Source: Bacteroidales bacterium
GTDB lineage: Bacteria > Bacteroidota > Bacteroidia > Bacteroidales > P3
DNA length: 64,000 nucleotides
Reading direction: 5' to 3'
Assembly (NCBI GenBank): GCA_017483575.1
Contig: JAFUWF010000019.1
Coordinates: forward strand, 62,001 to 126,000
Positions 3,397 through 50,854 of this stretch are shown piece after piece. Position numbers and translations under genes: made by a program. The notes below the pieces were generated by a model. That model saw nothing but the letters and a program-made list of their open reading frames with translations. It did not search any database and was not told where the DNA came from. Numbering within the stretch: the stretch's first letter is position 1; each line of letters opens with the position of its first letter.

Positions 3397-6336
3397 ATGG
3401 AGTATAATTTCAGCGAATTGGAGCCACGGTGGCAAAAGTACTGGAAGGAGGAGGGAGTGTACCACGTGGAGAACGGCGGTGAGCCGTCGCGACCGAACGG
3501 AAGCAACGGTTCTGTTAGACCGCATTTTTATGTTTTGGACATGTTTCCTTACCCCTCGGGTGCAGGCCTTCATGTGGGCCACCCTCTGGGATATATTGCG
3601 AGCGATATCTACGCCCGCTACAAGCGTTTGCGCGGATACAACGTGCTGCACCCCATGGGCTACGACGCCTACGGCCTGCCGGCCGAGCAGTACGCCATCC
3701 AGACGGGTCAGCACCCGGCGGTGACTACGGAGAAGAACATTGCGCGCTACCGCGAGCAGCTGGACAAGATTGGCTTCTCGTTCGACTGGGACCGCGAGGT
3801 GCGCACCTGCGACCCGAAGTATTATAAGTGGACGCAGTGGACCTTCATCCAGCTCTTCAACAGCTACTACTGCAACCAGGCCCGTCAGGCGCGCCCCATC
3901 AGCGAGCTGGTGGAGGTGTTTGCCAAGCAGGGCACCGAGGGGCTCGACCTGGCATGTACGGAGGAGATGCATTTCTCGGCCGACGAATGGAACTGCTGGG
4001 ACGAGGCCAAACGCCAGCAGGTGCTGATGAACTATCGCCTGGCCTACCTGGCGGACACCTACGTGAACTGGTGCGCCGAGCTGGGCACCGTGCTGGCAAA
4101 CGACGAGGTGGTGGGCGGACTTAGCGTCCGTGGCGGCTACCCCGTAGAGCGCAAGTTGATGCGTCAATGGAGTCTCCGCATCTCGGCCTACGCCCAGCGT
4201 CTGGTCGATGGGCTGGAGCAGGTGGACTGGACCGACTCGCTGAAGGAGATTCAGCGCAACTGGATCGGCCGCTCGGAAGGCGCCGCGGTGTGGTTCCCGT
4301 TGGCGGGGACACACTCCTCAGTCAGCCCTGAGCGGGCTGACAGCTCCCCTAACATAGGGGAGCATCAAGATGGAACTGCTTTTGAGATTTTCACTACCCG
4401 TCCTGATACCATCTTCGGCGTCACCTTTATGGTGCTTTGTCCTGAGCATGAGCTGATAGGGAGCATCACCACCCCGGAGCAGAAAGCCGAGGTGGAGGCC
4501 TACGTCACCTGGGCCAAGAACCGCTCGGAGCGCGAGCGCCAGGCTGAGGTGAAGAAGGTGAGCGGTGTGTTTACCGGTGCCTTCGCCGTCAACCCCTTGA
4601 CGGAAGAGAAGATACCCATCTACGTGAGCGACTATGTGCTGGCGGGCTATGGCACCGGTGCCATCATGGCCGTGCCGGCGCACGACAGCCGCGACTTCGC
4701 CTTCGCGCGCCATTTCGGCCTGCCGATACGCCAGGTCGTCTCCCTGGAGAAGGACGTCACCAGCGACCCCGCCACCTGGTCGGAGAGCATGGACGCCAAG
4801 ACGGGCTACTCGGTCAACAGCGGCTTCGTCACCGGCATGAAGGTGAAGGAAGCCATGGCCGCCGTGATTGACAAGATTGAGGAGATGGGCATCGGCCACC
4901 GCACGGTGAATTTCCGCTTGCGCGACGCCATCTTCAGCCGCCAGCGCTACTGGGGCGAGCCGTTCCCCATCTACTATAAGAGTTATGAGGTGGGAGGTAA
5001 GAGGTATGAGGTCGCGTGTGCGATTCCGGAGGAGTGCCTGCCGCTGGAGCTGCCGGAGGTGAGCGAGTTCAAGCCCACCGCCACGGGCGAGCCGCCGCTG
5101 GGCCACGCCAAGCGCTGGGCCTGGGACACCAAGACCAATAGTGTAGTCGATGTCTCGGACATCGACAACGAGACGGTCTTCCCCCTGGAACTGAGCACCA
5201 TGCCGGGCTTTGCGGGCAGCAGCGGATACTACCTGCGCTACATGGACCCGACGAACGACAAGGAGTACTTCTCCGAAAGCGCCGTGGACTACTGGCAGAA
5301 CGTCGACCTCTATGTCGGCGGCGCCGAGCACGGCACGGGTCACCTCATCTATGCGAGGTTCTGGAACAAGTTCCTGTTCGACCTTGGCCTGGCCAAGAAG
5401 GAGGAACCCTTCCAGAAACTGATCAACCAGGGCATGATCCAAGGCCGCTCGAACTTCGTCTACCGCTCGAAGGCCGACAACAACCTCTATATCTCGAAAG
5501 GCCTGATAAAGAGCATGGACGACGTCACGCCCATCCATGTGGACATCAACATCGTGGACAACGATGTGCTGGATGTGGAACGGTTCCGCGAATGGCGGCC
5601 GGAGTTCAAGGAGGCACGCTTCGAGCTCGAGGACGGCAAGTACATTTGCGGTTGGGAAGTGGAGAAGATGAGCAAGAGCATGTTCAACGTGCAGAACCCC
5701 GACGACCTGGTGGCGCGCTATGGCGCCGACACCCTGAGGCTCTACGAGATGTTCCTCGGCCCTGTGGAACAGGCCAAGCCGTGGGACACCAACGGCATCG
5801 AGGGTGTGCACCGCTTCCTGAAGAAGTTCTGGAAGCTGTATGACAACTGCCTGAGCAATCAGAGTAATCAGAATAATCCGAGCTCTCTGAAGACCCTCCA
5901 CCAGACCATCAAGAAGATTACCGACGACATCGAGCGCTTCTCGTTCAACACGGCTGTGTCGACCTTCATGATTTGCGTCAACACGCTGACCGACCAGAAG
6001 TGTGCCAGCGCCGAGGTGCTGAAGCCCTTGGCCGTGCTGCTGGCCCCCTTCGCGCCGCATATCGCCGAAGAGGTGTGGCACGGACTGGGCGGCGAAGGCA
6101 CGGTGTGCGATGCCGAGTGGCCTGTCTACGACGAGAAGATGCTGGTGGAGGACACGGTGAAGTATCCTGTGCAGTTCAACGGCAAGATGCGCTTCATGCT
6201 GGAGCTGCCTGCCGCCGCCACGCAACAGGAGGCCCTGGAGGCCGTGAAGGCCGCCCCGGAGAGCGCCAAATGGATGACCGGCGAACCGAAGAAGGTTATT
6301 TTCGTACCTAAGAAGATTATCAATATAGTATGCTAA
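3397..6336 (+). CDS. leuS: Leucyl-tRNA synthetase
   Basis: 979 aa class Ia synthetase that charges tRNA-Leu. The HIGH motif appears as HVGH at residues 59-62 and KMSKS at 757-761. The editing (CP1) domain lies between them, with a [12 protein letters not shown] stretch typical of that domain. The protein is somewhat longer than usual because three repeat-derived peptides are inserted in frame: about 305-320 (MITE-like element), 529-539 (heptamer array) and 819-830 (nonamer array). The first falls in or next to the editing domain. The 3' end overlaps nusB by 7 nt, so leuS and nusB are probably co-transcribed. Confidence 0.97.
4308..4354 (+). repeat. MITE-like element A, left half, inside leuS
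   Basis: Begins with the CACACTCCTC end (4310-4319) and contains the AGCTCCCCTAACATAGGGGAGC hairpin. It is read in frame as part of LeuRS, with SSPNIGE encoded by the hairpin. Confidence 0.85.
4984..5011 (+). repeat. Heptamer array, 4 units, inside leuS
   Basis: Units TATGAGG, TGGGAGG, TAAGAGG, TATGAGG. This is the reverse complement of the family found at 20263-20290 in the alpha-2-macroglobulin gene. Confidence 0.85.
5851..5886 (+). repeat. Nonamer array, 4 units, inside leuS
   Basis: Units CTGAGCAAT, CAGAGTAAT, CAGAATAAT, CCGAGCTCT. The 36 nt add 12 codons without disturbing the frame. The same family recurs in the A2M gene and twice in pheT. Confidence 0.85.
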
Positions 6337-19900: not shown

Positions 19901-22609
19901 GTGCCATACGAGCGTATGGACCTGGACCGCTACCGCTGTTCCTACTACCCGCTGCACGAATACCAGCAGTACGACGGCCCCAACCCCTACCGTCTCTCCC
20001 TCCGTTCCGGCTTCACCGAGGCCTACCGCTTCTACGGCCGCCGCATGTACAAGAACGCGCGAAGTGTCGCGGTGATAACATCCCTCTCCTCCGTTGAGAC
20101 CGAAGATGCCGTGGAAGAAGAGGTATTCAGCACCGCCCGCGGCGAGAGCAACATGGTCACCATGCAGGGCAACGTCCGCAAGCGCACGGAAAACTACGAT
20201 GAAGTGGCTATCCAGACCAGCGCCGACGAGGCTGAGGCCGATGCCGGCGACGCCCCCCAGTCTCCGACCTCCGACCTCATACCTCCCACCTCAATCCAGC
20301 TCCGCACCGACTTCAGCACCCTGGCCTTCTTCGTGGCCCGCCTGCACACCGACTCCACTGGCGCCGCCACCTATCGCTTCCGTGTCCCCGAGCTCCTCAC
20401 CCGTTGGAACGTCCGCGGCCTGGCCTTCACCGACGACCTCAAGCTGGGCACCCTCGACCGCACCCTCGTCACCCAGAAACCCCTCATGGTGCAGCCCAAC
20501 ATCCCGCGCTTCCTCCGCCAGGGCGACAGCCTGATGCTCATGGCAAAGGTGGTGAACCTCACCGACACGGCACGCCGCGTGCGCGTGGCCTTCTCCTATC
20601 GCAACGCCGCCGACAACAGCCTCCTCGACAGCACCGTGCAGTTCGTCAACGTCGACGCCCAGGGCAGCGCGCAGGTGATGTTCCGAATCTCCCAGCTGCC
20701 GAGCAACCTCCACGTCGCCACCTACACCATCACCGCCTCCGCCCCCGGCATGAGCGACGGCGAGCGCGGCCAGATTCCCGTCCTCACCAACCGCCAGGCC
20801 GTCACCGTCAGCCAGTCCCTCTACATCAACGGCCCCGGCACGAAAACTTTCCACTTCCCGCTACCTTTTTCCTCCCCTAAGCTAGGGGAGGTGGACGCCC
20901 AACGGGCGGACGGAGGAGTGTGTGAGCCCAAACTCCTCACCGCCGAGGTTGTCGGCGAGCCCTACTGGCTGGCCATCAAGACCATGCCTTACCTCAAGAC
21001 CCAGGAGAACCCCTCCACGCTCTACCTCGCCAACCAGTACTTTGTCAACAGCCGTGGTCCGGGTGTTCTTGCTGGCATGTCGAAAAGCAGCATTGAGAAA
21101 ATCACCCACAGCCTGCAGCAGGCGGCCGACCCATCGCCCCTCTCGCGCAACGAGGACGTCAAGCAGACCCTCCTCGAGGCCACACCGTGGACCCTCGACG
21201 CCGAGCGCGAGGAGGAACAGTTCCGCAACCTCGCCCTCTTCCTTGACACCGCCCGCATCAACAAGGAGATGGCGAAAACCGACGCCGAGCTCCGCAACCG
21301 ACAGAACGCCGACGGCGGATGGCCCTGGATGCCCGAAGGGCAAAGCAGCCTCTGGGTGACGCAGCAGGTGCTTACGCGCCTCGCCGAGACCTCCAACGGC
21401 ATCGGCGAAATGGTCGTCAAGGCCCTCGCCTACGTCGACCGCGAGCAACAGCATTATTATGAGAAATATATAAAGCCCCACTTAAAGAAAGGCTACAACT
21501 GCGAACCCACCAACATCGACTACCTCTACATGCGCTCCTTCCACGGCAAGGCCAAGACCGAGGCCTATAAGTTCTACTATGCCAACGCCCTGAAGAACTA
21601 CCGCCAATACGAAAACCTCTACACCCAGGCCCAGCTGGCCCTCATCTTCTATCGCAACGGCAACAAGCAGCAGGCCCAGGACCTTCTGCGTCGCATCAAG
21701 CAGAAATCGCTCGTCAGCGACGAGATGGGCATGTACTGGCGCGACAACCGCAGCGGCTGGTACTGGTACCAGCGCCCCATAGAGACCCAGGCCCTCCTCA
21801 TCGACGCCTTCGCCGAGGTCTCCCGCGCCGACACCATCGCCATTTCCCTCATGCAACAGTGGCTCCTCAAGCAACGCCAGACCACCCACTGGGGCAACGA
21901 CCTCGCCACCACGCGGGCCCTCGAAGCCCTCATGCGGAAAGGCCTCCGCAGGGGCAGCGACGAACCCGGCAGCCAGACGGTCTCCCTCGTTGTTTTCGGC
22001 GACAGCACACTCAGACCTCAGACCTCAGACCTCATCACTACCCTCGAAGACTACCGCTCCCACCGCTGGACCGGCCCCGCCCTCGACACACTCATAACTC
22101 ATAACTCATCACTCATAACTCTCAAAAAGACCACCCCCGGCATCGCCTGGGCCTCGGTCTGCTACCAGTACACCGACGACATCGACCGCATCCCCGCCAG
22201 CGAAACGGGCATTACCCTCAAGCGGAGTTATCTGAATCTGAGTAATCCGAATACTCCGAGTAATCAGACCACGCTGAAGGTTGGCGACCGCGTCCGCGTC
22301 CGCATCGAAATCACCGCCGACCGCGCCATGGACTACCTCCAGCTCGTCGACATGCGCCCCGCCTGCGTCGAGCCCGTCAGCACCCGCTCCGGCCGCCGCT
22401 GGGGAGGCGGACTGAGCTACTACGTCGAGGTGAAAAACACCGACACCCGCTGCTACATCGACCACATCGACAAAGGTCACTATGTCTTTGAATACGAGGT
22501 CTATGTCACCAACCCCGGCACCTTCCTCGCCGGCCCTGTCACCATGCAGTGCATGTACGCCCCCGAGTTCCGCGCCCTCGCTCCCGCCCAACGCATCGAG
22601 GTCCGCTGA
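16901..22609 (+). CDS. Alpha-2-macroglobulin family protein (thioester-less)
   Basis: 1902 aa, secreted (signal peptide MKKLVFALLVLAFTTASAQ). The N-terminal 250 residues look helical. An MG2-type domain starts near residue 466 (MTDRPIYRPGDTAHIAALLY), the A2M core lies near 1140-1220 (ELLTRWNVRGLAFTDDLKLG; PNIPRFLRQGDSL), and the helical thioester-domain equivalent spans about 1365-1700. The place where CxEQ would be reads KTQENPSTLYLANQYF, so the reactive thioester is absent. The last 100 residues match the C-terminal receptor-binding-like domain (GHYVFEYEVYVTNPGTFLAG). Bacterial A2Ms trap proteases in the periplasm; without a thioester it could still act by steric trapping. Six repeat-derived peptides are inserted in frame. 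Confidence 0.9.
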   Translation: MKKLVFALLVLAFTTASAQTDWKKTHDKLMEDGSYKDAYAAAENVFRRTKSSPELLAAARAMAESAAAYQEDAADSSLARYRSILPRLEAPERAVCYAWLGVADSALMEEAMLKQTPFDCIKPFLENEEHGKNDVNLTPTVFDVVAQHILADVVRDSIALMQNLIDFHSGDSDDLRILLDLQLMQKLWSYRPNEANTEERLRGYINKYRGSKSPQVTKFYHEMARVYSIHERYVEAVAYCDSAIALFPRSSGAVDCANLRTEILSQKIGIQASSLTIAGRPSLHVLEVRNLSRVHLALYPYKQKGRDFEFPAKLGKPLQEWQLDVDDNGDHKEHKAIFHLPALERGTYLLVSSVDGTFGVTDAYSVINSTDFLLLRNGADFQLVDAVSGDPIEGQEVVLLEWYSRNPADTAVSYPDGRFRLEVMKGRSMGVLSITRGGHSFLFNSYSGWAYGPQPSPEMTENARLMTDRPIYRPGDTAHIAALLYEADGVNGRTVGGRELTLRFDTPNGKRYCEWKLRTDAHGVADTLFVIPTDVLTGTWTVTLHDEGRKPPYLGYVNLCVEEYKQPKFMVSLDDPTQNTAAAPALGEPYTLRGRATAYSGASLGSAKVRYTVVRESFYWFRGYEQAQDYSFTDSTTTAADGSFDITFTPQPDSSIDLSRKPYFRFRVMVDVTDLNGETHSASASFTIGYCNERVSILGPKEDITSLNQVQLSYTDLNSRPLSGKVHLNLYHLRLPDTLRLAHPVVAYNSDAQMTLSRSEFRRLFPQYAYSAWEYAADSLEADMQLSVTLRPDGTDNIITVPIEGKRLPSGLYRIVARTDNVADTVYVCLTLPKEKNIANTELLWGHLDTASTAPGDRVTLSYASAFEGTRFFYTLTGPEGNELDSRWLPAGRRIKRLSIPIDSSMLGGVYVRLTTVRDGIDMEWTKEIDVPFTHKRLDVDIATFRDKLQPGEQEQWTLRTTSDLRPQTSHLILTMYDDALNSYGSLPSWNFSPWRSAHWVPYERMDLDRYRCSYYPLHEYQQYDGPNPYRLSLRSGFTEAYRFYGRRMYKNARSVAVITSLSSVETEDAVEEEVFSTARGESNMVTMQGNVRKRTENYDEVAIQTSADEAEADAGDAPQSPTSDLIPPTSIQLRTDFSTLAFFVARLHTDSTGAATYRFRVPELLTRWNVRGLAFTDDLKLGTLDRTLVTQKPLMVQPNIPRFLRQGDSLMLMAKVVNLTDTARRVRVAFSYRNAADNSLLDSTVQFVNVDAQGSAQVMFRISQLPSNLHVATYTITASAPGMSDGERGQIPVLTNRQAVTVSQSLYINGPGTKTFHFPLPFSSPKLGEVDAQRADGGVCEPKLLTAEVVGEPYWLAIKTMPYLKTQENPSTLYLANQYFVNSRGPGVLAGMSKSSIEKITHSLQQAADPSPLSRNEDVKQTLLEATPWTLDAEREEEQFRNLALFLDTARINKEMAKTDAELRNRQNADGGWPWMPEGQSSLWVTQQVLTRLAETSNGIGEMVVKALAYVDREQQHYYEKYIKPHLKKGYNCEPTNIDYLYMRSFHGKAKTEAYKFYYANALKNYRQYENLYTQAQLALIFYRNGNKQQAQDLLRRIKQKSLVSDEMGMYWRDNRSGWYWYQRPIETQALLIDAFAEVSRADTIAISLMQQWLLKQRQTTHWGNDLATTRALEALMRKGLRRGSDEPGSQTVSLVVFGDSTLRPQTSDLITTLEDYRSHRWTGPALDTLITHNSSLITLKKTTPGIAWASVCYQYTDDIDRIPASETGITLKRSYLNLSNPNTPSNQTTLKVGDRVRVRIEITADRAMDYLQLVDMRPACVEPVSTRSGRRWGGGLSYYVEVKNTDTRCYIDHIDKGHYVFEYEVYVTNPGTFLAGPVTMQCMYAPEFRALAPAQRIEVR
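19787..19814 (+). repeat. Heptamer array, 4 units, in A2M
   Basis: Units TCAGACC, TCCGACC, TCAGACC, TCTCACC; translated as part of TSDLRPQTSHL near residue 965. Confidence 0.88.
20263..20290 (+). repeat. Heptamer array, 4 units, in A2M
   Basis: Units TCCGACC, TCCGACC, TCATACC, TCCCACC; translated as PTSDLIPPTS near residue 1122. Confidence 0.88.
20871..20924 (+). repeat. MITE-like element A, right half, in A2M
   Basis: CCTCCCCTAAGCTAGGGGAGG hairpin, then GGGCGGACGGAGGAGTGTGTG end. Read in frame as SSPKLGEVDAQRADGGV near residue 1325. Confidence 0.88.
22011..22038 (+). repeat. Heptamer array, 4 units, in A2M
   Basis: TCAGACC three times perfectly, then TCATCAC; translated as LRPQTSDLIT near residue 1704. 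Confidence 0.9.
22091..22125 (+). repeat. Heptamer array, 5 units, in A2M
   Basis: CTCATAA, CTCATAA, CTCATCA, CTCATAA, CTCTCAA; translated as LITHNSSLITLK near residue 1731. Confidence 0.9.
22226..22270 (+). repeat. Nonamer array, 5 units, in A2M
   Basis: AGTTATCTG, AATCTGAGT, AATCCGAAT, ACTCCGAGT, AATCAGACC; 45 nt, 15 codons, translated SYLNLSNPNTPSNQT. Confidence 0.88.
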
Positions 22610-36057: not shown

Positions 36058-37986
36058 ATGCCGCATTTTTTGCCGATAACATTGGATGAAGTCAAGCGCC
36101 TGGGATGGGAACAAGTGGACGTTGTGCTTGTTTCCGGGGATGCGTATGTGGACCATCCGTCGTTTGGGACGGCGGTGATCGGGCGGACGCTGGAGGCGGC
36201 GGGGTACCGCGTGGCGATCATCCCGCAGCCGAACTGGAGGGACGACCTCAGGGATTTCAGAAAATTCGGAAGGCCGAGGCTGTTCTTTGGGGTGACGAGC
36301 GGGGCGATGGACAGCATGGTGAACCACTACACCGCGGCGCGTCGTCTGCGACACGACGACGCCTATACGCCCGACGGACAGGCGGGCTTCCGGCCCGACA
36401 GGGCTACCTACGTCTACTCGCGGATTCTGAAACAGATTTATCCCGACGTGCCGGTCGTCATCGCGGGTATCGAGGCCTCGATGCGGCGGCTGGCGCACTA
36501 CGACTACTGGGACGACAAGCTGTTTCCAAGCATATTGATTGACACGCCGGCGGACCTGCTGAACTACGGGATGGGGGAGAGGACGACGCTGAAGATTGCC
36601 AAGCTGATAGAGAACGGAGAGTGGAGAACGGATAACGGAGAGCTGAGCGAGGCGGTGAGGAGGCTGCCGCAGGTGGCCTATGTGACACACACTCCTCCGT
36701 CAGCACTTCGTGCTGCCACCTCCCCTAAGTTAGGGGAGGGGGACCACTGCAAAGCGGTGGGGGAGGAGTGTGTGATGTCCTTGCACAGTTTCGAGGAGTG
36801 CCAGAAGAGCAAGCGCTGCGAGGCGGAGAACTACCAGATCATCGAGCGGGAGAGCAACAAGATAGAGTGTGCGACGCTCGTCCAGAAGCACGGCGACCGC
36901 TATGTGGTGGTGAACCCGCCGGAGCCGCCGATGACTACGGAGGAGATAGACGCGAGCTTCGACCTGCCGTACCTGCGGCTGCCGCACCCGAAGTACAAGA
37001 AGCGCGGCGCCATACCGGCCTTCGAGATGATACGGTGGAGCGTGAACACGCACCGCGGCTGTTTCGGCGGCTGCTCGTTCTGCACCATCAGCGCCCACCA
37101 GGGCAAGCAGATAGCCTCGCGCAGCGAGGCCTCCATCCTCCGCGAGGTGGAACTTATCACACAGGATCCCGACTTCCACGGCGTGCTGACCGACCTCGGC
37201 GGCCCCTCGGCCAACATGTGGCGCATGAAGGGGCGGAACCAGGAACTCTGCAAGAAATGCGCGCGCTACAGCTGCTCCATGCCGACGATGTGCAAGAACC
37301 TCGACAGTGACCACCGGCCGATGATTAACCTGCTGCGGAAGGTGAGTGCGCACCCGAAGGTGAAGCACCTCTATGTCGGCAGCGGCATACGGTGCGATTT
37401 GTTCGTCGGGACACACTCCTCCACCACCGCTTCGCGGCGGTCCCCCTCCCCTAACTTAGGGGAGGAGCCAAGTAACCACGGCTGGGAGTATTTTAAAGAA
37501 GTAGTTCTGCACCACACCAGCGGCCGCCTGAAGGTGGCTCCCGAGCATACCTCCGACCATGTGCTGGCCATGATGCGAAAGCCGGGCTTCGAGCTCTTCC
37601 GCGAGACCAAGCGCCGCTTCGACGAGATATGCAAGCAGGCGGGCCTGCGCTACCAGCTGATACCCTACTTCATCAGCAGCCACCCCGGCTGCCGCCTGCA
37701 AGACATGGCCGACCTGGCACTGAAGATGAAGCAGATGGGATACCGCCTGGAGCAGATACAGGATTTTACTCCAACGCCCATGACCCTCAGCACCGAGATG
37801 TACTACACTGGCATCGACCCCACCACGATGAAGCCCGTCTACGTGGCCACCACGCCCGGTGACAAGGCCGACCAACGGCGCCTCTTCTTCTTCTACAAGC
37901 CCGAGATGCAGCGCGACATCATTCAGAGCCTGCGCCGCAACGGCCTCGCACAGTTCATTGCCAGGCTCTTTCCGGGGAAGAGGTGA
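36058..37986 (+). CDS. YgiQ-family radical SAM protein
   Basis: 642 aa. The radical SAM cluster motif is C335-x3-C339-x2-C342 (HRGCFGGCSFC). The N-terminal UPF0313 region (LGWEQVDVVLVSGDAYVDHP ... MRRLAHYDYW) and C-terminal IPYFISSHPGC are typical. Reaction unknown. Three repeat-derived insertions are in frame: a heptamer array at about 185-196, an 89-bp MITE-like element at about 210-239, and another at about 452-471. All are upstream or downstream of the cluster motif and probably form surface loops. Start is the ATG 4 nt after the NdpA-like stop. Confidence 0.92.
   Translation: MPHFLPITLDEVKRLGWEQVDVVLVSGDAYVDHPSFGTAVIGRTLEAAGYRVAIIPQPNWRDDLRDFRKFGRPRLFFGVTSGAMDSMVNHYTAARRLRHDDAYTPDGQAGFRPDRATYVYSRILKQIYPDVPVVIAGIEASMRRLAHYDYWDDKLFPSILIDTPADLLNYGMGERTTLKIAKLIENGEWRTDNGELSEAVRRLPQVAYVTHTPPSALRAATSPKLGEGDHCKAVGEECVMSLHSFEECQKSKRCEAENYQIIERESNKIECATLVQKHGDRYVVVNPPEPPMTTEEIDASFDLPYLRLPHPKYKKRGAIPAFEMIRWSVNTHRGCFGGCSFCTISAHQGKQIASRSEASILREVELITQDPDFHGVLTDLGGPSANMWRMKGRNQELCKKCARYSCSMPTMCKNLDSDHRPMINLLRKVSAHPKVKHLYVGSGIRCDLFVGTHSSTTASRRSPSPNLGEEPSNHGWEYFKEVVLHHTSGRLKVAPEHTSDHVLAMMRKPGFELFRETKRRFDEICKQAGLRYQLIPYFISSHPGCRLQDMADLALKMKQMGYRLEQIQDFTPTPMTLSTEMYYTGIDPTTMKPVYVATTPGDKADQRRLFFFYKPEMQRDIIQSLRRNGLAQFIARLFPGKR
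36610..36644 (+). repeat. Heptamer array, 5 units, in ygiQ
   Basis: GAGAACG, GAGAGTG, GAGAACG, GATAACG, GAGAGCT. Confidence 0.85.
36686..36774 (+). repeat. MITE-like element A in ygiQ, both ends present
   Basis: Begins CACACTCCTCC, ends GGAGGAGTGTGTG, with the CTCCCCTAAGTTAGGGGAG hairpin in the middle. 89 bp, fully open in the ygiQ frame. Confidence 0.92.
37411..37469 (+). repeat. MITE-like element A, half copy, in ygiQ
   Basis: Begins ACACACTCCTCCACCACCGC and ends after the CTCCCCTAACTTAGGGGAG hairpin; codes SPNLGEE. Confidence 0.9.
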
Positions 37987-38094
37987 CACACTCCTCAGTC
38001 AGCCCTGGACGAGCTGCCAGTTCCCCTAACTTTGCTCCACTTCGGTCGCAGGCCATGTCCCCTACGGGGCCAGGCAGAGGGGAACAGTTGGATT
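37985..38094 (+). repeat. MITE-like element A, degraded, after ygiQ
   Basis: GACACACTCCTCAGTCAGCC start directly at the ygiQ stop; the hairpin region is altered (CCCCTAACTTTGCTCC) and a CCCCTACGGGG segment follows. The 311-bp gap to the P-II-like gene also holds degenerate 11-mers (GGGAGATGGTA-like, 38148-38210) and a terminator. Confidence 0.75.
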
Positions 38095-38297: not shown

Positions 38298-38600
38298 TCA
38301 GACCATTTGTTCGATGTTCCAGACGAAGGCGCGGATGCCGACCTCCTCGTTGCGCTTGTCGAGCTTGCGGACGGAGTTGAGGAGCTCCTGGACCTGGTCG
38401 TCCTCGACCACGGTGAGAATGGCATTGTTGAGTTCGGGCCAGGTGTGGGTGCCGCGGTGGGGGTCGCCGTTCTCGTGGCCACGGCCCTGGATGTTCTCCC
38501 AGAAGGTGAATCCGCGGATGCCGAGGGTGTCGAGCATGTACTCCACGCGCTCGTTGTTGGCCTGGTTGTAGACTATCATTACACTTTTCATAATTTTCAT
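38298..38600 (-). CDS. P-II-like, PG0541-type transporter-associated protein
   Basis: 100 aa. Ferredoxin-like fold resembling P-II (KSVMIVYNQANNERVEYML ... NNAILTVVEDDQVQELLNSV). PG0541-type proteins are found next to RND efflux operons in Bacteroidetes, as here, and may sense a ligand to tune the pump. Either of two ATGs (38600, 38591) could start it. Between it and the permease gene lies an inverted-repeat element. Confidence 0.8.
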   Translation of the reverse strand: MKIMKSVMIVYNQANNERVEYMLDTLGIRGFTFWENIQGRGHENGDPHRGTHTWPELNNAILTVVEDDQVQELLNSVRKLDKRNEEVGIRAFVWNIEQMV

Positions 38601-38605
38601 TTTTT

Positions 38606-38755
38606 AACGGCGAATTTTACGAATTAAACGAATTTGCTGCCGCTGATGAATTACAGGCTAATTACTCTAATTTGCTTGCGCAAGCACAATTCGAGTAATT
38701 GGATTGCAATTATGCATTGCGTAGCAATTAGTATAATTCGTTAAATTCGCCGTTT
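38606..38755. repeat. Inverted-repeat element H (MITE-like)
   Basis: Ends AACGGCGAATTTTACGAATT and, on the other strand, AACGGCGAATTTAACGAATT form imperfect terminal repeats around a 150-bp AT-rich core that itself has a TTGCTTGCGCAAGCA hairpin. Confidence 0.85.
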
Positions 38756-38758
38756 TCA

Positions 38759-41941: not shown

Positions 41942-41970
41942 AGGTTTCTAGTTTTTTTTTCTAGATATAC

Positions 41971-41997
41971 TGGTTGTTCTGGATGCTCTGGTTATTC
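41971..41997 (-). repeat. Nonamer array, 3 units, at the adaptor gene 3' end
   Basis: TGGTTGTTC, TGGATGCTC, TGGTTATTC. The adaptor stop codon (minus-strand TAA, 41992-41994) lies inside the last unit. Confidence 0.7.
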
Positions 41998-43026: not shown

Positions 43027-43047
43027 TATTGTATGTTTTTTGTATCG

Positions 43048-44352: not shown

Positions 44353-44380
44353 TGTTACTATTATTACTTATTTGTTATTA

Positions 44381-45025
44381 TCAAAACATATTGTCTATGT
44401 CGAGTTCCTTGACCACCTGCTCGAAGTGGTTCACCTCGCGGTCGTAGCGCTCGAGGGTCTCGGTGGTCATCAGTCCGCGCATGTAGGTGAAGCATATCTC
44501 GTTGAGCTGGTGCTCGTAGGCATCGCGGTCTGGGACATCGGATATGCGACGCTGCTGGATGAGGTTGCAGAGGAAGTCGACGGCCACCTCCACATCGGCA
44601 TCGGGGCGCAGGTAGCCTTTTGTTTTTACGAAATTCAGGCCCGACTGCATCAACTGCCGCATGGCGGTGGAGTGGACCTTGAAGAAGCGGTCGTGGATTT
44701 CGGGGTAGTAGCGCTCTGCCTCCTCGATGATGCGGCGGTATTTGTGGATGAACATGGCGTTGGTGCGCAGCATGTACATGGCCACCAGCAGGGGCTCCTC
44801 CACTCGGCTGTGGGCCTGGCGGTGCATCTCGTCGGTGCGGTCGTGCACCAGCGTCAGGCATGCCGCCAGCAGCTCCTCCTTGTTGGCGAAGGTCTCGTAG
44901 AGCGTGCGCTTCGACATGTGCAGCGCCTGGGCGATGTCGTCCATCGTCACGCCACGGCAGCCGCGGGTGTTGAACATTTGTAGCGCGGTCTCCACGATTT
45001 TTTCTTTGTTCTCTTCTGTCGCCAT
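44381..45025 (-). CDS. TetR/AcrR-family regulator
   Basis: 214 aa. N-terminal helix-turn-helix (GVTMDDIAQALHMSKRTLYE) and a divergent ligand-binding C-terminal domain. As first gene of the pump operon it probably represses its own operon. It lies 28 nt upstream of the tolC-like gene. Confidence 0.92.
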   Translation of the reverse strand: MATEENKEKIVETALQMFNTRGCRGVTMDDIAQALHMSKRTLYETFANKEELLAACLTLVHDRTDEMHRQAHSRVEEPLLVAMYMLRTNAMFIHKYRRIIEEAERYYPEIHDRFFKVHSTAMRQLMQSGLNFVKTKGYLRPDADVEVAVDFLCNLIQQRRISDVPDRDAYEHQLNEICFTYMRGLMTTETLERYDREVNHFEQVVKELDIDNMF

Positions 45026-45098
45026 TGTCGGCTCTATATGGTTGTATTTTAGTTGTTAAAGCACTTTTCGTATATAAATAAGATACGCGAAAAGCGGT

Positions 45099-45107
45099 GC
45101 AAAGATA
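45099..45107 (-). promoter_or_regulatory. Promoter -7 box of the efflux operon
   Basis: TATCTTTGC on the minus strand, 73 nt before the tetR ATG. It directly adjoins the terminator of the upstream yajC copy. The inverted GCACTTTTCG / CGAAAAGCGGTGC sequence at 45061-45100 may be an operator. Confidence 0.6.
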
Positions 45108-45108
45108 C

Positions 45109-45146
45109 AAAAAAACTCCGAAAACCAAGAAAGTTTTCGGAGTTTT
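45109..45146 (-). terminator. Terminator of yajC copy 2
   Basis: Stem AAACTCCGAAAAC / GTTTTCGGAGTTT with a 7-nt loop, flanked on both sides by A/T runs, so it could work in both directions. Confidence 0.88.
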
Positions 45147-45169
45147 TTGCTGTTAAATAATCTTAACGC

Positions 45170-45466
45170 TTATTTCTCCTTGTGCTCGGGGATGGGCTGC
45201 AGGGTGCCGATCTGCACTTTCATGCGGGCGCCGGGAGCTGCTTCGACGATAGCCCAGCCACCGTCGCGACTGACGAAGCTGACATGTATGCCGCCGGCGG
45301 TCATCACTCGGTCGCCCTTCTGTAGGCCGTCGCGGTAGGCTTGTTCTTTCTTGGTTTTCTGGCTCTGCGGTCGGATGAGGAAGAAGTAGAACACCACTAT
45401 CATCAGTACAATCATGATGCCCGTTTTCCAGCCGTTGGCAATGTCGAGGAGTATGAAATCAGTCAT
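45170..45466 (-). CDS. yajC: Preprotein translocase subunit YajC (copy 2)
   Basis: 98 aa. One transmembrane helix (WKTGIMIVLMIVVFYFFLIR) then RPQSQKTKKEQAYRDGLQKG and GDRVMTAGGIHVSFVS, the YajC signature. It is monocistronic with its own terminator. Two yajC genes within 40 kb is unusual; this one has a shorter N-terminus and a more divergent beta domain than copy 1. Confidence 0.9.
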   Translation of the reverse strand: MTDFILLDIANGWKTGIMIVLMIVVFYFFLIRPQSQKTKKEQAYRDGLQKGDRVMTAGGIHVSFVSRDGGWAIVEAAPGARMKVQIGTLQPIPEHKEK

Positions 45467-45571
45467 ATCTTGATGTTTTTTTGTTAAAAATATGCCTTAG
45501 AAACGCAAAGCCGTTCATTTTATTGCATCCCGGGGCAATATTTTTTCGCCTCCTTCGTTAAATGGTATGTT

Positions 45572-46984
45572 ATGAATGGCATGAACGAAAAATACAACGC
45601 GCTGCGCCGCCGCTATCCCGTGTTCGCCTACGAGGCTTTCCACCACGAGTGGACCCCCGAAGGGCTACGGCTGTGTTTCGACTTCCGTATGGACGACGTC
45701 GTCTTCCATCCCGAGGCACTCATCGAGGAGCGCCCCTTCCTGAGCCGCGAGGTGCCGGCCGAGGCCTTGGACCGCATGGTGTTCGACATCGGCATGATAG
45801 AGCTGATAAGCTACTGGAAATGTGCCTGTCCGCCGACGGTGGAGGTACGCTGCGGCACGCTCACCGACGGGCAGGTGGCTTTCTGGAAGAAGCTCTACTG
45901 GAACGGCCTCGGCGAGTTCTTCTATACCAATGGCATTTCAGAAACGCAGAAGGCGTTTCTGAAAGTGGAGAGTGGAGAGTGGAGAGTGGAGAACAAGGCT
46001 GGCTCGGGCTGCGTAGCACCGCTCTCCACTCTCCGCTCTCCACTCTCCACTCAATATCTCGTCCCCATCGGTGGCGGCAAGGACAGCGTTGTCACCCTCG
46101 AGCTGCTTCGCCGGGCCGGCAAGACCATCCGCCCGCTCATCATGAATCCCCGCGGTGCCACCATCGAGTGCGCCCGTGTGGCGGGCTTCACGCTGGAAGA
46201 GGTGCTCGTCATCCGCCGCAAGATAGACCCTACGCTTCTGGAACTCAACAAGCAAGGCTACCTCAACGGCCACACCCCCTTCAGCGCCATGCTGGCCTTC
46301 TACACCCGCCTGGCCTCGGCCCTCAGCGGCATCCCCAACGTGGCCCTCAGCAACGAGAGCTCCGCCAACGAGAGCACCGTCATCGGCACATCGGTAAACC
46401 ATCAGTATTCCAAGAGCTTGGAGTTTGAGGATGATTTCCGCCGATATGTGAGGCCGACATCCCCCCTCGAGGGGGGCATGGGGGGTGATTTCAATTATTT
46501 CAGCTTCCTGCGCCCTCTGAGCGAGCTGCAGATAGCCATGCTCTTCAGCCGCTTCACGGCCTACCACGACGTCTTCCGTTCGTGCAACGTGGGCAGCAAG
46601 GAGGATATCTGGTGCGGCCATTGCGCCAAGTGCCTCTTCGCCTACATCATCCTCTCACCCTTCATCGAACCGACACGGCTGAACCAGATCTTCGGCAAGT
46701 CGATGCTCGACGACGAGACGCTGCGCCTCGAGTTCGACCAGCTGCGTGGCGAGGCCGAGACCAAGCCCTTCGAGTGCGTAGGCACCGTCAGCGAGGTCAA
46801 CCAGGCCCTCTCGATGACCCTCCGCCGCTGGTATCCCGTCGCGCGCCCCGCCCTCCTGAGGAATCTGGAACTCTCAGCCGCTCTAGATAATCTAGAAACT
46901 CTAGAGCATCTAGAACCCCAAGGCAACCTAACCCCAGAGGAATTCAATATTTTGCAACAAGCATGTACCGAGAAGAACAACTGA
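45572..46984 (+). CDS. murL: UDP-MurNAc-L-Ala-L-Glu epimerase MurL
   Basis: 470 aa, near the length of characterised MurL. A PP-loop-like ATP motif GGGKDS is at 167-172, and LSNESSANESTV near 265 and a cysteine cluster C348-GH-C351-AK-C354 are visible. MurL epimerises the terminal L-Glu of UDP-MurNAc-L-Ala-L-Glu to D-Glu with ATP going to AMP and PPi. The next gene is a MurD-like ligase, as expected for MurD2. Repeat-derived insertions are in frame at about 131-160 (inverted heptamer pair), 297-307 (SPLEGGMGG) and 437-449 (nonamers). An internal start two codons later (MNEKYN) is also possible. Confidence 0.85.
   Translation: MNGMNEKYNALRRRYPVFAYEAFHHEWTPEGLRLCFDFRMDDVVFHPEALIEERPFLSREVPAEALDRMVFDIGMIELISYWKCACPPTVEVRCGTLTDGQVAFWKKLYWNGLGEFFYTNGISETQKAFLKVESGEWRVENKAGSGCVAPLSTLRSPLSTQYLVPIGGGKDSVVTLELLRRAGKTIRPLIMNPRGATIECARVAGFTLEEVLVIRRKIDPTLLELNKQGYLNGHTPFSAMLAFYTRLASALSGIPNVALSNESSANESTVIGTSVNHQYSKSLEFEDDFRRYVRPTSPLEGGMGGDFNYFSFLRPLSELQIAMLFSRFTAYHDVFRSCNVGSKEDIWCGHCAKCLFAYIILSPFIEPTRLNQIFGKSMLDDETLRLEFDQLRGEAETKPFECVGTVSEVNQALSMTLRRWYPVARPALLRNLELSAALDNLETLEHLEPQGNLTPEEFNILQQACTEKNN
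45965..45992 (+). repeat. Heptamer array (GTGGAGA)x4 in murL
   Basis: Four perfect units. Complementary to the array at 46023-46050, 30 nt downstream. Confidence 0.95.
46023..46050 (+). repeat. Heptamer array (TCTCCAC)x4 in murL, inverted partner
   Basis: TCTCCAC, TCTCCGC, TCTCCAC, TCTCCAC. Pairs with 45965-45992 to form a 28-bp stem with one mismatch. Confidence 0.93.
46459..46490 (+). repeat. CCCCCCTCGAGGGGGG palindrome in murL
   Basis: A perfect GC palindrome followed by CATGGGGGGTGAT, coding TSPLEGGMGGD. Similar SPLEGG-coding insertions are familiar from other Bacteroidetes genomes, but only one copy is in this window. Confidence 0.6.
46882..46917 (+). repeat. Nonamer array, 4 units, in murL
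   Basis: TCTAGATAA, TCTAGAAAC, TCTAGAGCA, TCTAGAACC; codes LDNLETLEHLEP-like residues. Confidence 0.88.
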
Positions 46985-48336
46985 AAGCCCTCCTCGCAGG
47001 GCACCGCATACTCATCGCCGGCTACGGCCGTGAAGGCAAGAGCGCCGAAAGGCTGATACAGAGACTTCTGCCCGATGCCGACTACACCGTCGCCACGCAA
47101 GTGGAAAGCGGCAAATGGAAAACGGAAAGCGGCGAATGGCGACAAGATTGGCCCTTCGACATGGTCATCAAGTCCCCTGGTATCCCCAATTTTCAATTCT
47201 CAATTCTCAATTTTCAACTCACTTCCCTCACCGACCTCTTCCTCCAAGTCTATGGCGACCTCACCATTGGCGTCACCGGCACCAAGGGCAAGTCCACCAC
47301 CGCCAGCCTCATCCACCACCTGCTGCCCGGCTCTATCCTCGCCGGCAACATCGGCATCCCCCTCTTCGACATCCTCGACGACCTCCACGAAGACTCCCTT
47401 GTCGTGGCCGAGCTCTCCTGCCACCAGCTGGAGAATATCCACCGCGGACCCCATATCGCCGTGTTGCTCAACCTTTTCCAGGAACATCTGGACCACTACG
47501 AGGACTACCTCGGCTACAAGATGGCCAAGATGCAGATAGCCCTCCGCCAGCAACCCGGCGACCATTTCTTCTACTGCACCGACAACCAGGAGCTTTCCGA
47601 CCTTACAGCGGCGCATGTCTCAGACATGCGCTCCATGCTTCACCCCTACAGCCTCAGCAACGCCACTGCCGACGAGCGCCGCCTGATAGACGCCTGCCCT
47701 CTGAAGGGCGAGCACAACAGGAGCAACATCTTGGTGGCTTGCCGCGTCTACACACTCCTCAGTCAGGCGCAGGCGCCTGACAGCTCCCCTGGCTTAGGGG
47801 AGCTGCCAAATAGCAAGGCCTCGGTAACTTGCTCCTCCCCTAAGTTAGGGGAGGGGGACCGCCGCGCAGCGGTGGTGGAGGAGTGTGTCCACCGTCTTTC
47901 CATTTTCCACGGCCTCCGTCACCGCATAGAATACCTTGGCAACCATGCCGGTATCCACTGGTACGACGACAGCATCTCCACCATCCCTGAGGCCGCCATC
48001 GCCGCCGTCCAGGCCCTTGGCCGTGTCGACACGCTGATACTCGGCGGCTTCGACCGCGGCATCGACTACAGCCCGCTGGTCGACTTCCTGACCGAACACC
48101 CCGTCCCCAACCTCGTCTTCGTCGGCCAGGCCGGCCGCCGCATTAATTCTCAATTCTCAATTCTCAATTCTCAATTCCTCGTCGAGGATGACTACACCAA
48201 GATTGTCCCCTGGTGCGCCACGCACACGCCGCAGGGTGGGGTAGTGCTGCTCTCGCCCGCCGCGGCGAGCTACGACGCCTTCAAGAACTTCGAACACCGC
48301 GGCGACTTCTTCGCCGAACTGATAAAAAGGTTATAG
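46963..48336 (+). CDS. murD2: UDP-MurNAc-L-Ala--L-Glu ligase MurD2
   Basis: 457 aa. Mur-ligase ATP loop GVTGTKGKST at 103-112, central-domain VVAELSCHQLENI and NLFQEHLDHYEDY, C-terminal domain NHAGIHWYDDSISTIPEAAI and LILGGFDRGIDY. MurD homologues add Glu to UDP-MurNAc-L-Ala; pairing with MurL implies L-Glu is used. It overlaps murL by 22 nt. Four repeat insertions are in frame: 47-60, 76-86 (heptamers), 264-309 (a full 138-bp MITE-like element) and 394-405 (heptamers). Its stop codon comes from a fifth array. Confidence 0.85.
   Translation: MYREEQLKALLAGHRILIAGYGREGKSAERLIQRLLPDADYTVATQVESGKWKTESGEWRQDWPFDMVIKSPGIPNFQFSILNFQLTSLTDLFLQVYGDLTIGVTGTKGKSTTASLIHHLLPGSILAGNIGIPLFDILDDLHEDSLVVAELSCHQLENIHRGPHIAVLLNLFQEHLDHYEDYLGYKMAKMQIALRQQPGDHFFYCTDNQELSDLTAAHVSDMRSMLHPYSLSNATADERRLIDACPLKGEHNRSNILVACRVYTLLSQAQAPDSSPGLGELPNSKASVTCSSPKLGEGDRRAAVVEECVHRLSIFHGLRHRIEYLGNHAGIHWYDDSISTIPEAAIAAVQALGRVDTLILGGFDRGIDYSPLVDFLTEHPVPNLVFVGQAGRRINSQFSILNSQFLVEDDYTKIVPWCATHTPQGGVVLLSPAAASYDAFKNFEHRGDFFAELIKRL
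47101..47142 (+). repeat. Degenerate heptamer array, 6 units, in murD2
   Basis: GTGGAAA, GCGGCAA, ATGGAAA, ACGGAAA, GCGGCGA, ATGGCGA. Confidence 0.8.
47187..47214 (+). repeat. Heptamer array, 4 units, in murD2
   Basis: CAATTTT, CAATTCT, CAATTCT, CAATTTT; codes NFQFSILNFQL. Confidence 0.9.
47751..47888 (+). repeat. MITE-like element A, complete, in murD2
   Basis: 138 bp from CACACTCCTC to GGAGGAGTGTGT with two hairpins: CAGCTCCCCTGGCTTAGGGG and CTCCCCTAAGTTAGGGGAG. 138 nt is 46 codons, all open in this frame. Confidence 0.93.
48144..48178 (+). repeat. Heptamer array, 5 units, in murD2
   Basis: TAATTCT, CAATTCT three times, CAATTCC; codes NSQFSILNSQF. Confidence 0.92.
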
Positions 48337-48356
48337 GTTATTGGTTATAGGTTATT
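48329..48356 (+). repeat. Heptamer array, 4 units, supplying the murD2 stop codon
   Basis: GGTTATA, GGTTATT, GGTTATA, GGTTATT. The murD2 TAG (48334-48336) spans units 1 and 2, and the array ends 3 nt before the next ATG. Confidence 0.9.
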
Positions 48357-48359
48357 GAT

Positions 48360-49439
48360 ATGGAAACGACTGACTATAAAACAATACGACAGACTCTCCA
48401 TGAGCATCCGCAGACGGCAGGAAACGAGCAGTTTGCGCACGATTATATCATCCAACACTTGCAGTCGCTCCATCCCGACCGGGTCTACACCCATGTCGGC
48501 GGCTGGGGCGTCATCGCCGTGTGGGGCAAGGACCCGCAGGCGCCCACCGTCGCCTTCCGCGCCGACACCGATGCCCTGCCCATCGGCCACCGCTGTGGCC
48601 ACGACGGCCACACCACCATCCTCCTCCGCCTGGCAGAGCTTGTCGACAGTTACGTATGTTGCAACATTGTTGCAACACACAACATCCTCCTCCTCTGGCA
48701 ACCCGCCGAGGAGACCGGCGAGGGCTCGCAGGCCGTGCTCGAGAGCGGCATCCTGCAGCAGTATAACATCAAGGCCTTCTATGCCTTGCACAACCTCCCC
48801 GGCTATCCTCTGGGCACCGTGGTGCTCTGCCCTCGCACCTTTGCCGCCGCCTCCACAGGCATCATCTACCACCTCGATGGCCGCGAGACCCATGCCTCTA
48901 CGCCAGAACTGGGCATCAACCCCGGCCTGGCAGTGGCGGAGATTATCAACAGATTCGACGGGTTCAACAAGTCTGAAGGGGAATTCAGACAGAGCACCCT
49001 CATCTGCGTACACCTCGGCAGCCCCGCCTTCGGCACGTCGGCAGGCCATGCCGAAGTGATGTTCACCCTCCGTGCCTTCACCAACGAAGCGATGGAAAAA
49101 CTCCTCGCTGAGGCTAATCAAGCAGTGGATGAAATGGCGTTACGCTACAATCTGAAAGTCAGTCGCATGCTTAAAGAGCCTTTCCGCGCCACGGAGAACG
49201 ACGGCGACTGCGTTGAGGCCATCGAGCGGGCTGCTGAGGAACTCCCCCTGCGCGTGCGCTACCAGATGGAGCCCAACCGCTGGAGCGAGGACTTCGCCGA
49301 GTACCTGCTGCACTTCAAGGGCGCCATGTTCGGCCTCGGCAGCGGCGAGCACCATCCCGAGCTCCACCACCCCGACTACGACTTCCCCGACGCCATAATA
49401 GAAACAGCTGCAAGACTTTTCCTGCAGCTGGCGCAATAG
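48360..49439 (+). CDS. M20-family amidohydrolase/peptidase
   Basis: 359 aa. Metal-site motifs FRADTDALPIGHRCGHDGH near residues 73-91 and WQPAEETGEG near 122-131 follow the M20D pattern of hippurate/aminoacylase-like zinc enzymes, and HHPELHHPDYDFPD near the end has the last metal ligand. A dimerisation domain lies between (about 175-285). Substrate unknown; likely an N-acyl amino acid or dipeptide. It is 23 nt after murD2 and may share its transcript. Confidence 0.9.
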   Translation: METTDYKTIRQTLHEHPQTAGNEQFAHDYIIQHLQSLHPDRVYTHVGGWGVIAVWGKDPQAPTVAFRADTDALPIGHRCGHDGHTTILLRLAELVDSYVCCNIVATHNILLLWQPAEETGEGSQAVLESGILQQYNIKAFYALHNLPGYPLGTVVLCPRTFAAASTGIIYHLDGRETHASTPELGINPGLAVAEIINRFDGFNKSEGEFRQSTLICVHLGSPAFGTSAGHAEVMFTLRAFTNEAMEKLLAEANQAVDEMALRYNLKVSRMLKEPFRATENDGDCVEAIERAAEELPLRVRYQMEPNRWSEDFAEYLLHFKGAMFGLGSGEHHPELHHPDYDFPDAIIETAARLFLQLAQ

Positions 49440-49442
49440 CCA

Positions 49443-49634
49443 AGCCCCGAAGGGGCGTTAGTGCATAGCCGTGGGCGTGAGCCCACGGGTGAACGATACG
49501 TCATCCGGAATATTGAGCCCCGAAGGGGCGACACTAGCAATCGTTGTGCCGCCCCTTCGGGGCTCGTATTTTTGTCTGTTCATGTTCCCGTGGGCTCACG
49601 CCCACGGCTAAACACTATCGCCCCTTCGGGGCTT
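49443..49634. repeat. Head-to-head pair of GCCCCGAAGGGGC elements
   Basis: The 208-bp gap holds two inverted units of about 95 bp. Each has a GCCCCGAAGGGGC palindrome, a CCGTGGGCGTGAGCCCACGG hairpin and a second GCCCCGAAGGGGC. The second unit is the reverse complement of the first with changes in the spacers. Confidence 0.92.
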
Positions 49635-49647
49635 AATCGGATGCTAA

Positions 49648-50268
49648 TCAGCTCTTTTTCTTTGTGCTGGTGGTGCTGCCAGTCTTCTTCTCCAGGGTGA
49701 TGTAGTTGGGGAAGGGAACCTGGGTGGTGCCGACGCTGAGGCTGGGGCGGACGCGGAGGCCCACCTTGGAGGAGACGCCCTCGGAGGTGAAGCTGGACGC
49801 GAAGGTCTTCAGCGCGTCAAGACCCTTCTGCGAGAAGAGCTGACCCAGGTCTGTACTCACCGGCAGCGGCACGGTGGTGGTGGTCGAAGGCTTGATCGTG
49901 TAGTTCTTCGACGACACCCCGTTGGCCATATCCGTACCGTCGATGGCCAGAATCCAGTCCAGTGCCGTCATGGCGGCCTGCGTCTGGGTGGGGTTCGTCA
50001 CGTCGACGTTCACGTTCAGGTTCAGTGGCACCTGCTTGCTCTGGTAGGCGGCCACGAGCTTCACGATGTCGGTGGCAGAGAGGTTGCCGTTGGTCAGATT
50101 CTTCACGTTGACGCCCGCCACACTGACATTGGAGACGTTCTTCAGCGCAAATTCGCAGTTGGCAAGGTTGGCCACGCTGGAAAACTGCGAGGCTATTTGT
50201 GTGAGTACATCACACGAACTCAGCAGGATAGAACCTGCAAGGACTAATGCAAAAGTTATCTTTTTCAT
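49648..50268 (-). CDS. LEA-type-2-like lipoprotein
   Basis: 206 aa from the ATG at 50268 (an upstream in-frame ATG at 50283 lies before the promoter box). Lipobox ILLSSC at about residues 14-19. The mature part (LANCEFALKNVSNVSVAGVN; VPLNLNVNVDVTNPTQTQAA) resembles the LEA14/WHy beta-sandwich. Ends in a Ser/Thr/Lys tail. Role unknown, probably periplasmic face of the envelope. Confidence 0.75.
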   Translation of the reverse strand: MKKITFALVLAGSILLSSCDVLTQIASQFSSVANLANCEFALKNVSNVSVAGVNVKNLTNGNLSATDIVKLVAAYQSKQVPLNLNVNVDVTNPTQTQAAMTALDWILAIDGTDMANGVSSKNYTIKPSTTTTVPLPVSTDLGQLFSQKGLDALKTFASSFTSEGVSSKVGLRVRPSLSVGTTQVPFPNYITLEKKTGSTTSTKKKS

Positions 50269-50271
50269 GCT

Positions 50272-50280
50272 GCAAAGATA
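50272..50280 (-). promoter_or_regulatory. Promoter -7 box of the LEA-like lipoprotein
   Basis: TATCTTTGC on the minus strand ends only 3 nt before the start codon, implying a leaderless or nearly leaderless mRNA. Confidence 0.6.
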
Positions 50281-50404
50281 CAACTTTTTTCAATAACGGA
50301 GAAAAAAAATAACATCCACCTCCAACCAACCGCCCTGCGACCATCAACCAACCGCCCCACGACCGCCAACCAACCGTTGTACCCCAACTTTCGTTCAGGC
50401 AAAA

Positions 50405-50570
50405 AACAGGGGTCAAATAGGTGTCTTATTCGACTGTTCTTATATAGTATACATATAGTATACATATACTTCTCATATAGTTCTTATATATAGTATATGA
50501 ATACTATATGAGAAGTATATGTATACTATATGTATACTATATTAGAAGGGACGAATCGGGTGGGGGGTAG
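50405..50570. repeat. AT-rich palindromic element, copy 4 of 4
   Basis: AACAGGGGTCAAATAGGTGT then CTTATTCGACTGTTC flank a palindrome with 39-bp perfect arms (50442-50480 and 50504-50542) and a 23-nt loop. The 571-bp gap also contains element A (50586-50732) and the glnS promoter. Confidence 0.93.
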
Positions 50571-50585
50571 GTAGGGGTCTTCCAG

Positions 50586-50732
50586 ACACACTCCTCAGTC
50601 AGCGTCAAGCCGCTGCCAGCTCCCCTAACTTAGGGGAGCAGTTAGATTTTAGGTAACAATGACATAGCTATCCTGTTTCCTCCCCTAGGCTAGGGGAGGT
50701 GGACGCCCGCAGGGCGGACGGAGGAGTGCGTG
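50586..50732 (+). repeat. MITE-like element A, complete, upstream of glnS
   Basis: 147 bp from CACACTCCTC to GGAGGAGTGCGTG with two hairpins, AGCTCCCCTAACTTAGGGGA and CTCCCCTAGGCTAGGGGAG, 48 nt apart. Confidence 0.93.
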
Positions 50733-50770
50733 GGAAAAAACGCCTGTTGTGCGGTTGTTGGAAAATAAAT

Positions 50771-50802
50771 TTTGTTGGTTTCCAATCTTTTTGTATATTT
50801 GC
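50771..50802 (+). promoter_or_regulatory. Bacteroidetes-type promoter of glnS
   Basis: TTTG at 50771-50774, 19-nt spacer, TATATTTGC at 50794-50802; ATG 52 nt downstream. Confidence 0.75.
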
Positions 50803-50854
50803 AATTTGGTTTAATCGTGAAATTATATTAAATCTATATATATATCAAATCATT

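Follow-up and report, generated by a model that had tools for sequence, protein, structure and literature searches.

Element A, a short palindromic repeat with seven copies in the window (the whole 64,000-nucleotide stretch of Bacteroidales DNA that was analysed), is probably a non-autonomous, hairpin-bearing mobile repeat of the REP/BIME type, which is kept in genes only where it lies in frame in a tolerant loop of the encoded protein and is then translated. Palindromes that code for protein are known mainly from Rickettsia, with scattered examples among REPs.

Copies in the window and unit anatomy

All seven copies reported by the initial annotation are present in the window, with positions shifted by 1-2 bases (Table 1). 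A pattern search located CACACTCCTC at 4310, 36688, 37412, 37987, 47751, and 50587, GAGGAGTGTG at 20913, 36763, and 47878, and GAGGAGTGCG at 50721, and eight hairpins in the window are at most 4 mismatches from CTCCCCTAASTTAGGGGAG. Five copies do lie inside the LeuRS, A2M, YgiQ (two copies), and MurD ORFs, as had been claimed, and the hairpin is in the identical codon phase in 5/5 of them; the LeuRS copy reads as 18 residues. The gene name MurD2 has to be replaced by MurD, as the protein matches TIGR01087 murD above the cut-off. The division into halves and full copies is correct in that both forms exist, but a half is one unit (terminus, hairpin 1, and hairpin 2) and a full copy is two units placed head to head. 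Two full copies in the window carry two hairpins, in line with the initial description, whereas the copy at 36687-36773 is compact, with two termini and one hairpin.

Table 1. Copies of element A in the window and Y1 transposase genes fused in frame to host genes in relatives
Feature	Location	Strand	Context
Half copy, one unit, subtype A	4309..4371	+	In frame in LeuRS ORF 3397-6336
Half copy, subtype C	20861..20923	-	In frame in A2M-like ORF 16901-22609
Compact copy, 2 termini and 1 hairpin, units of subtypes C and D	36687..36773	.	In frame in YgiQ ORF 36058-37986, site 1
Half copy, subtype D	37411..37474	+	In frame in YgiQ, site 2
Truncated unit, subtype A, without second hairpin arm	37986..38032	+	Begins at YgiQ stop codon and therefore not intragenic
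Full copy, unit A and inverted unit D, 2 hairpins 51 bp apart	47750..47888	.	In frame in MurD ORF 46963-48336
Full copy, unit A and inverted unit C	50586..50728	.	Intergenic; no frame open across copy
Y1 (IS200-like) inside SpoU/TrmH-family methyltransferase	L245:628-2097; L243 (TrmH-like ORF); L251:1483-2763		One open frame; three species
Y1 in WYL/WCX-type regulators	L266:943-2733; L271:829-2523; L277:868-2559		Three species
Y1 behind HAD domain	L269:751-2160		Fourth species

The anatomy of the element was drawn from 91 units with a recognisable hairpin. Each unit is composed of ACACACTCCTC, hairpin 1, hairpin 2 (fixed as CTCCCCTAACTTAGGGGAG), and an end near CAGCCAGATAG, in this order, and the halves share a common inner end near GATAG. 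Three subtypes are set by hairpin 1, namely A (AGTCAGC..GCTGMCAG), C (CGTCCGC..GCGTCCAC), and D (CACCACCGC..GCGGTCCCC). At the foot of hairpin 1, CGTC is found in subtype C only, with AGTC in A and CACC in D, and the tail of subtype C contains CCA. Full copies are mostly 134-150 bp long (range 87-163), have near-perfect terminal inverted repeats, and usually pair A with C or D; C is paired with D in two (L047 and the copy at window 36687), and two more are without assignable subtypes. Half copies with a single terminus are common. No clear target duplication was detected in 30 full copies over lengths of 2-12, with only length 9 giving P = 0.03, uncorrected over the 11 lengths.

The pairing of hairpin 1 is retained via paired changes in two length groups. 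Among 27 distinct 33-base units, pair 16-28 is CG in 18, AT in 5, TA in 3, and AG in 1, and pair 19-25 is CG in 14, AT in 9, GC in 3, and CA in 1; among 18 distinct 34-base units, pair 18-27 is CG in 11, GC in 6, and CC in 1. In a third length group (n = 10), a simple stem search gave no useful hairpin 1 stem. The stem core measures about 5-6 bp by eye, compared with 8-9 bp for REPs in the available part of PMC3733652.

Other repeats were also observed. Inverted heptamer arrays (GAGTGGA.. / ..TCCACTC) at window 45961-46052 make a long hairpin inside ORF 45572-46984, and heptamer repeats of the AATTCTC and ACCTCAG types lie in frame in MurD (47174-47234 and 48145-48177), where relatives have similar peptides, and in A2M (19784, 20260, and 22008). 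Between genes, the window holds 11-bp tandem arrays at 3172, 12965, 22789, and 50492 and at 22609-22663 (AGTATATGTATACTATATG palindromic type; AAACGGACCAC), and an inverted pair of matches to Rfam Acido-Lenti-1 (RF01687) above the gathering score at 49443-49488 and 49588-49633, resembling the palindromes next to the Y1 gene of locus L195. Tandem arrays made of termini only, with a 22-bp period (ACACACTCCTCAGCCTTCCCTG), occur at L017:378-510, which has seven termini, and at the L004-type loci L009, L021, and L036.

Genic placement, reading frame, and empty sites in relatives

In the assembly to which the window belongs (1.96 Mb, a 77.7% complete draft), a search allowing up to 2 mismatches gave 93 hairpins (control, 0), and the terminus ACACACTCCTC is present 108 times (reversed-pattern control, 1), and such numbers are therefore not due to chance. 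The sequence around 100 of the 108 termini was taken, giving together with the window 45 records of 543,441 bases. The profile scan of the genome that the initial annotation had suggested was run on these records with a unit profile built from 48 units, and it recovered 106 units in 75 elements. By hand-sorting, 46 of the 75 elements are in open reading frames, a further 8 sit at the edge of a gene, and 21 are intergenic, where "genic" means that a frame runs through the element without a stop and that the element is surrounded by coding sequence or a recognisable protein. The host genes include those of LeuRS, YgiQ (twice), MurD, Mfd, PriA, RadA, MiaB, RibE, a TrmH-like protein, and IspE, the last with three elements in one gene. 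NCBIfam cut-offs were passed by LeuRS, YgiQ, MurD, IspE, Mfd, RadA, PriA, RibE, MiaB, and FolC, and also by a type III pantothenate kinase and an acyl-CoA dehydratase activase. The match of a RarA-like ATPase is below the cut-off, 2 of the 18 element-bearing proteins scanned gave no NCBIfam match, and TrmH-like, TruA, FolK, and UbiE are putative names read from the sequence.

Codon phase 2 is used by all 50 hairpins of 38 genic copies, in agreement with the proposed use of the single stop-free frame, although this result is partly circular because an open frame was part of the definition of "genic" and stops are present in both other frames; the other 8 of the 46 genic copies are fragments without hairpin. 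A less circular test is offered by copies with two hairpins, in which the hairpin spacing is divisible by 3 in 12/12 genic versus 7/12 intergenic cases (Fisher P = 0.04) and in 2/2 edge copies; intergenic copies likewise favour lengths divisible by 3. The terminus is read in all three frames. Among the non-genic copies, of which 28 of 29 were checked, only L044 is flanked on both sides by stop-free coding sequence; there, a histidine kinase gene ends on one side of the copy and a response regulator gene begins on the other, and therefore no broken gene was seen. As the copies sit in one stop-free frame, they are expected to appear as extra protein loops, and the frame constraint in single housekeeping genes suggests that the genic copies are translated into extra residues.

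Alignments with same-genus relatives were made for LeuRS (29 relatives), YgiQ (25, one of them partial at site 1), MurD (27), MiaB (7), RadA (7), RibE (6), the TrmH-like protein (7), the RarA-like ATPase (7), and Mfd (6), the last six being represented by 40 loci hand-chosen from the match list. LeuRS was matched throughout the genus search, with the closest relative 89% identical. Element A is missing from every relative examined at 10/10 sites, so that the half copy in LeuRS is absent from all 29 relatives and the full copy in MurD from all 27. Ancestral residues were thus found at none of the 10 sites in 6-29 relatives each, and the reading as insertions stands. Counting against it, genomes that carry element A have a site in common in each of two further genes, one transglutaminase-like and one UbiE-like.

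Nine of the 10 sites are in intervals that vary by at least 2 residues among the relatives alone, compared with 0.89 expected given the proportion of such intervals (P = 3e-10 if the sites are independent). The intervals were taken between invariant columns, with truncated relatives left out; this measure replaced an earlier one, affected by truncated orthologues and misplaced sites, in which 5/10 sites were near an indel. The exception is the RibE site, at which the length is constant among relatives. By alignment, the LeuRS insert lies between FPVEG and the strand preceding TTRPDT of 1h3n, a region that we take to be the editing domain, and the MiaB insert between residues 224 and 229 of 7mjv. 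The MurD insert is between the central and C-terminal parts, the alignment resolving no finer.

Spread of the element, refilled loops, and Y1 transposases

An order-wide scan with a stricter pattern matched 1 of 393 genomes, the window's own, in a sample with one other member of the genus only. Within the family, a 14-mer is present in 22 of 190 genomes, with at least 2 matches in 12, all in the genus of the window; the single matches in the other 10 may be chance. The genome G108 has 55 matches, and 10 of the 30 loci examined there are in frame and flanked on either side by coding sequence; one in-frame copy is in a MiaB-like gene, at a different loop. Among 15 public loci from assemblies of ruminant Bacteroidales or Bacteroidetes (UBA2939, RUG156, RUG134, RUG10805, RUG11699, Red_deer_4_mag_30, and RGIG3228), 4 are in frame. 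Viral contigs, searched with two patterns for phage carriage, gave no exact match, and Rfam gave no match overlapping five element copies in window 36500-51000 at E ≤ 1. No description of element A or of such loops in Bacteroidales was found in the literature at the level of titles and abstract openings, most subscription papers lying outside the search.

The loops that hold element A in the window's genome are filled by other repeats in relatives. At YgiQ sites 1 and 2, G042 has a different palindrome (CCCCTCTCCGATTGGAGAGGGG; LTPSPSPIGEGS when read at site 2), to which the palindrome at site 2 of G014 is related; site 2 is occupied by short tandem arrays (GGGAGTGAAA type) in G091, G115, and G060 and is a plain loop of 4-5 residues in most other relatives. 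The LeuRS loop contains inverted heptamer arrays in G018 and G043, similar to those at window 45961-46052, and a longer non-repeat loop in many relatives. Short palindromes are found in G090 in the TrmH-like loop, which carries a full element A in the window's genome. In a transglutaminase-like gene, RUG156 and UBA2939 share one element site with the window's genome. There, the composite elements of RUG156 and UBA2939 are identical at 119/123 positions and the 60 codons on each side at 263/360 (ungapped; Fisher P = 5e-10), and this greater likeness of the element than of its flanks suggests either conversion or parallel insertion. A UbiE-like gene also has a site common to other element-carrying genomes. 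In RUG134 (L067:885-1330) this gene shows an in-frame tandem expansion with units about 102 bp apart, from the second half of the element, and RUG10805 (L054) has an out-of-frame copy in an apparent truncated UbiE-like fragment. The sharing of loops can reflect saturation of few tolerant sites or conversion between repeats.

At the element A loop of the TrmH-like gene, G075, G073, and G020 carry a palindrome-flanked Y1 transposase, and the open frame continues through it (490 aa in G075). Pfam divides each chimera into SpoU_methylase in two stretches and Y1_Tnp, and full-length matches to the chimera are present in 3 of 120 genus genomes. The transposase part, compared between G075 and G073 (one pair), has a dN of 0.052 and a dS of 1.06. 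Y1_Tnp also splits WYL/WCX regulators in frame in G078, G051, and G101 (WCX near or below the Pfam cut-off), and in G057 it lies behind a HAD domain within a single frame. Inteins are in-frame mobile-enzyme domains inside host proteins, with splicing. The Y1 domains in the TrmH and WYL genes are likewise in-frame mobile-enzyme domains within a host protein, but Pfam matched no splicing domain in the TrmH-Y1 and WYL-Y1 ORFs.

No Y1_Tnp bounded by element A was found among the 3 in the window's own genome (77.7% complete) and the 17 among the matches listed in 8 relatives. Y1 transposases flanked by REP-like palindromes, not by element A, do occur in the window's genome, and with such flanks they were rejected as the cognate enzyme; only a Y1 fragment is near an element A copy. 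In G108 a partial element A unit is about 600 bp from a Y1 gene, and in G014, G054, G060, and G090 element A termini are present with no Y1_Tnp match in the domain search. We tentatively propose that a small set of housekeeping-protein loops in the genus may be a shared niche, which unrelated repeats (element A, LTPSPSP palindromes, inverted tandem arrays, and complete Y1 transposases) would colonise or exchange in frame. The transposase form would be stable, and the three-species TrmH-family Y1 domain would be under purifying selection and intein-like without splicing.

Relation to known repeats and explanations weighed

The parallel with Rickettsia palindromic elements (RPEs) drawn in the initial annotation holds for in-frame genic and intergenic copies. 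As described in the available parts of PMC2229807 and PMC10969869, RPEs are palindromic repeats of about 100-150 bp, in frame in many unrelated conserved genes and also intergenic, and element A is likewise a palindromic repeat, with in-frame copies in protein genes and further copies in intergenic DNA. It differs in its host (rumen-type Bacteroidales versus obligate intracellular bacteria), in its organisation as units and head-to-head pairs, in the refilling of its loops by other repeats in relatives, and apparently in sequence. REPs, in the available part of PMC3733652, are hairpins with complementary changes and a GTAG or CGTC tag, with defined stem lengths, found as singles and as head-to-head dimers of two paired subtypes; intragenic REPs are known there from several phyla, some in ORFs, with one Xanthomonas recB pair hit at about the same site. 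Element A shares the covarying hairpin, the singles and inverted dimers, the paired subtypes, and the copies in ORFs, and its subtype C may be likened to REPs in its CGTC foot and CCA-containing tail. Unlike REP/BIME, it has two hairpins per unit, an 11-bp conserved terminus, a larger genic share than is described in that part of the source, and no cognate RAYT found in its own genome (77.7% complete) and 8 relatives.

The initial label "MITE-like" is justified by the terminal inverted repeats of full copies, which together with a non-autonomous nature and a typical length of 137-150 bp are shared with MITEs as described in the available part of PMC10969869. If element A were a classical MITE, a DDE transposase would recognise the 11-bp terminal inverted repeats and the halves would be deletion remnants, as could be expected from the near-perfect repeats and from the 8/46 genic copies that are clear remnants without hairpin. 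However, the 30 full copies are without target duplication, the many single-terminus halves end at the common inner point near GATAG, and no parent insertion sequence with such ends was noticed among the termini listed; we consider this origin unlikely. As halves are common, target duplication is not seen, and hairpin 1 covaries, a REP/BIME-like element is better supported than a MITE. It is also improbable that the filled loops arose mainly by ectopic gene conversion, with a repeat-holding loop overwritten by another copy and no fresh insertion. Such a process would fit the transglutaminase-like gene of RUG156 and UBA2939, but relatives have repeat-free short loops at the RibE site, and most of them at YgiQ site 2, and the unrelated repeat families are without the homology that conversion requires.

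Strong mRNA hairpins would be in line with inserts that are cut from the RNA or bypassed by the ribosome, leaving normal proteins. Frame and stops would then be free, yet there is one open frame and a spacing divisible by 3 in all 12 genic two-hairpin copies, which makes this reading highly improbable. That there was no insertion at all, the loops being variable protein sequence of ancestral origin or else a product of faulty assembly, could be suggested by the variable loops at the sites and by the draft state of the genome. This deserves practically no credence, as the DNA is repeated at about 100 places and in other public assemblies, where some loci are again in frame; ancestral protein sequence is ruled out by orthologues without element A at 10 sites, and this reading is excluded for the sites tested.

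According to the preferred explanation, a mobile REP/BIME-type repeat, element A would be mobilised as a single-stranded DNA hairpin by a Y1 (HUH) transposase acting in trans, with no duplication of the target, and we regard such a Y1-mediated step as quite possible. Genic copies would persist only with a frame-keeping length, the hairpin in its open frame, and a tolerant loop, and those retained would be translated as additional residues. The same loops recur across species with unrelated repeats, which may have hit them again or overwritten them by gene conversion, presumably because tolerant loops are few and repeats are many.

Within one genus, 120 genomes provide sites in the same housekeeping genes that are empty, filled, or filled differently, and the rate at which mobile DNA becomes protein, the loops that are tolerant, and the housing of transposases in host genes are therefore testable. 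If the reading of the loops as a shared niche is true, a host gene can house a REP-type transposase in the manner of an intein, without splicing. The finding is also a warning that, in LeuRS, YgiQ, MurD, RadA, and other proteins of this genus, some loops are young, repeat-derived sequence.
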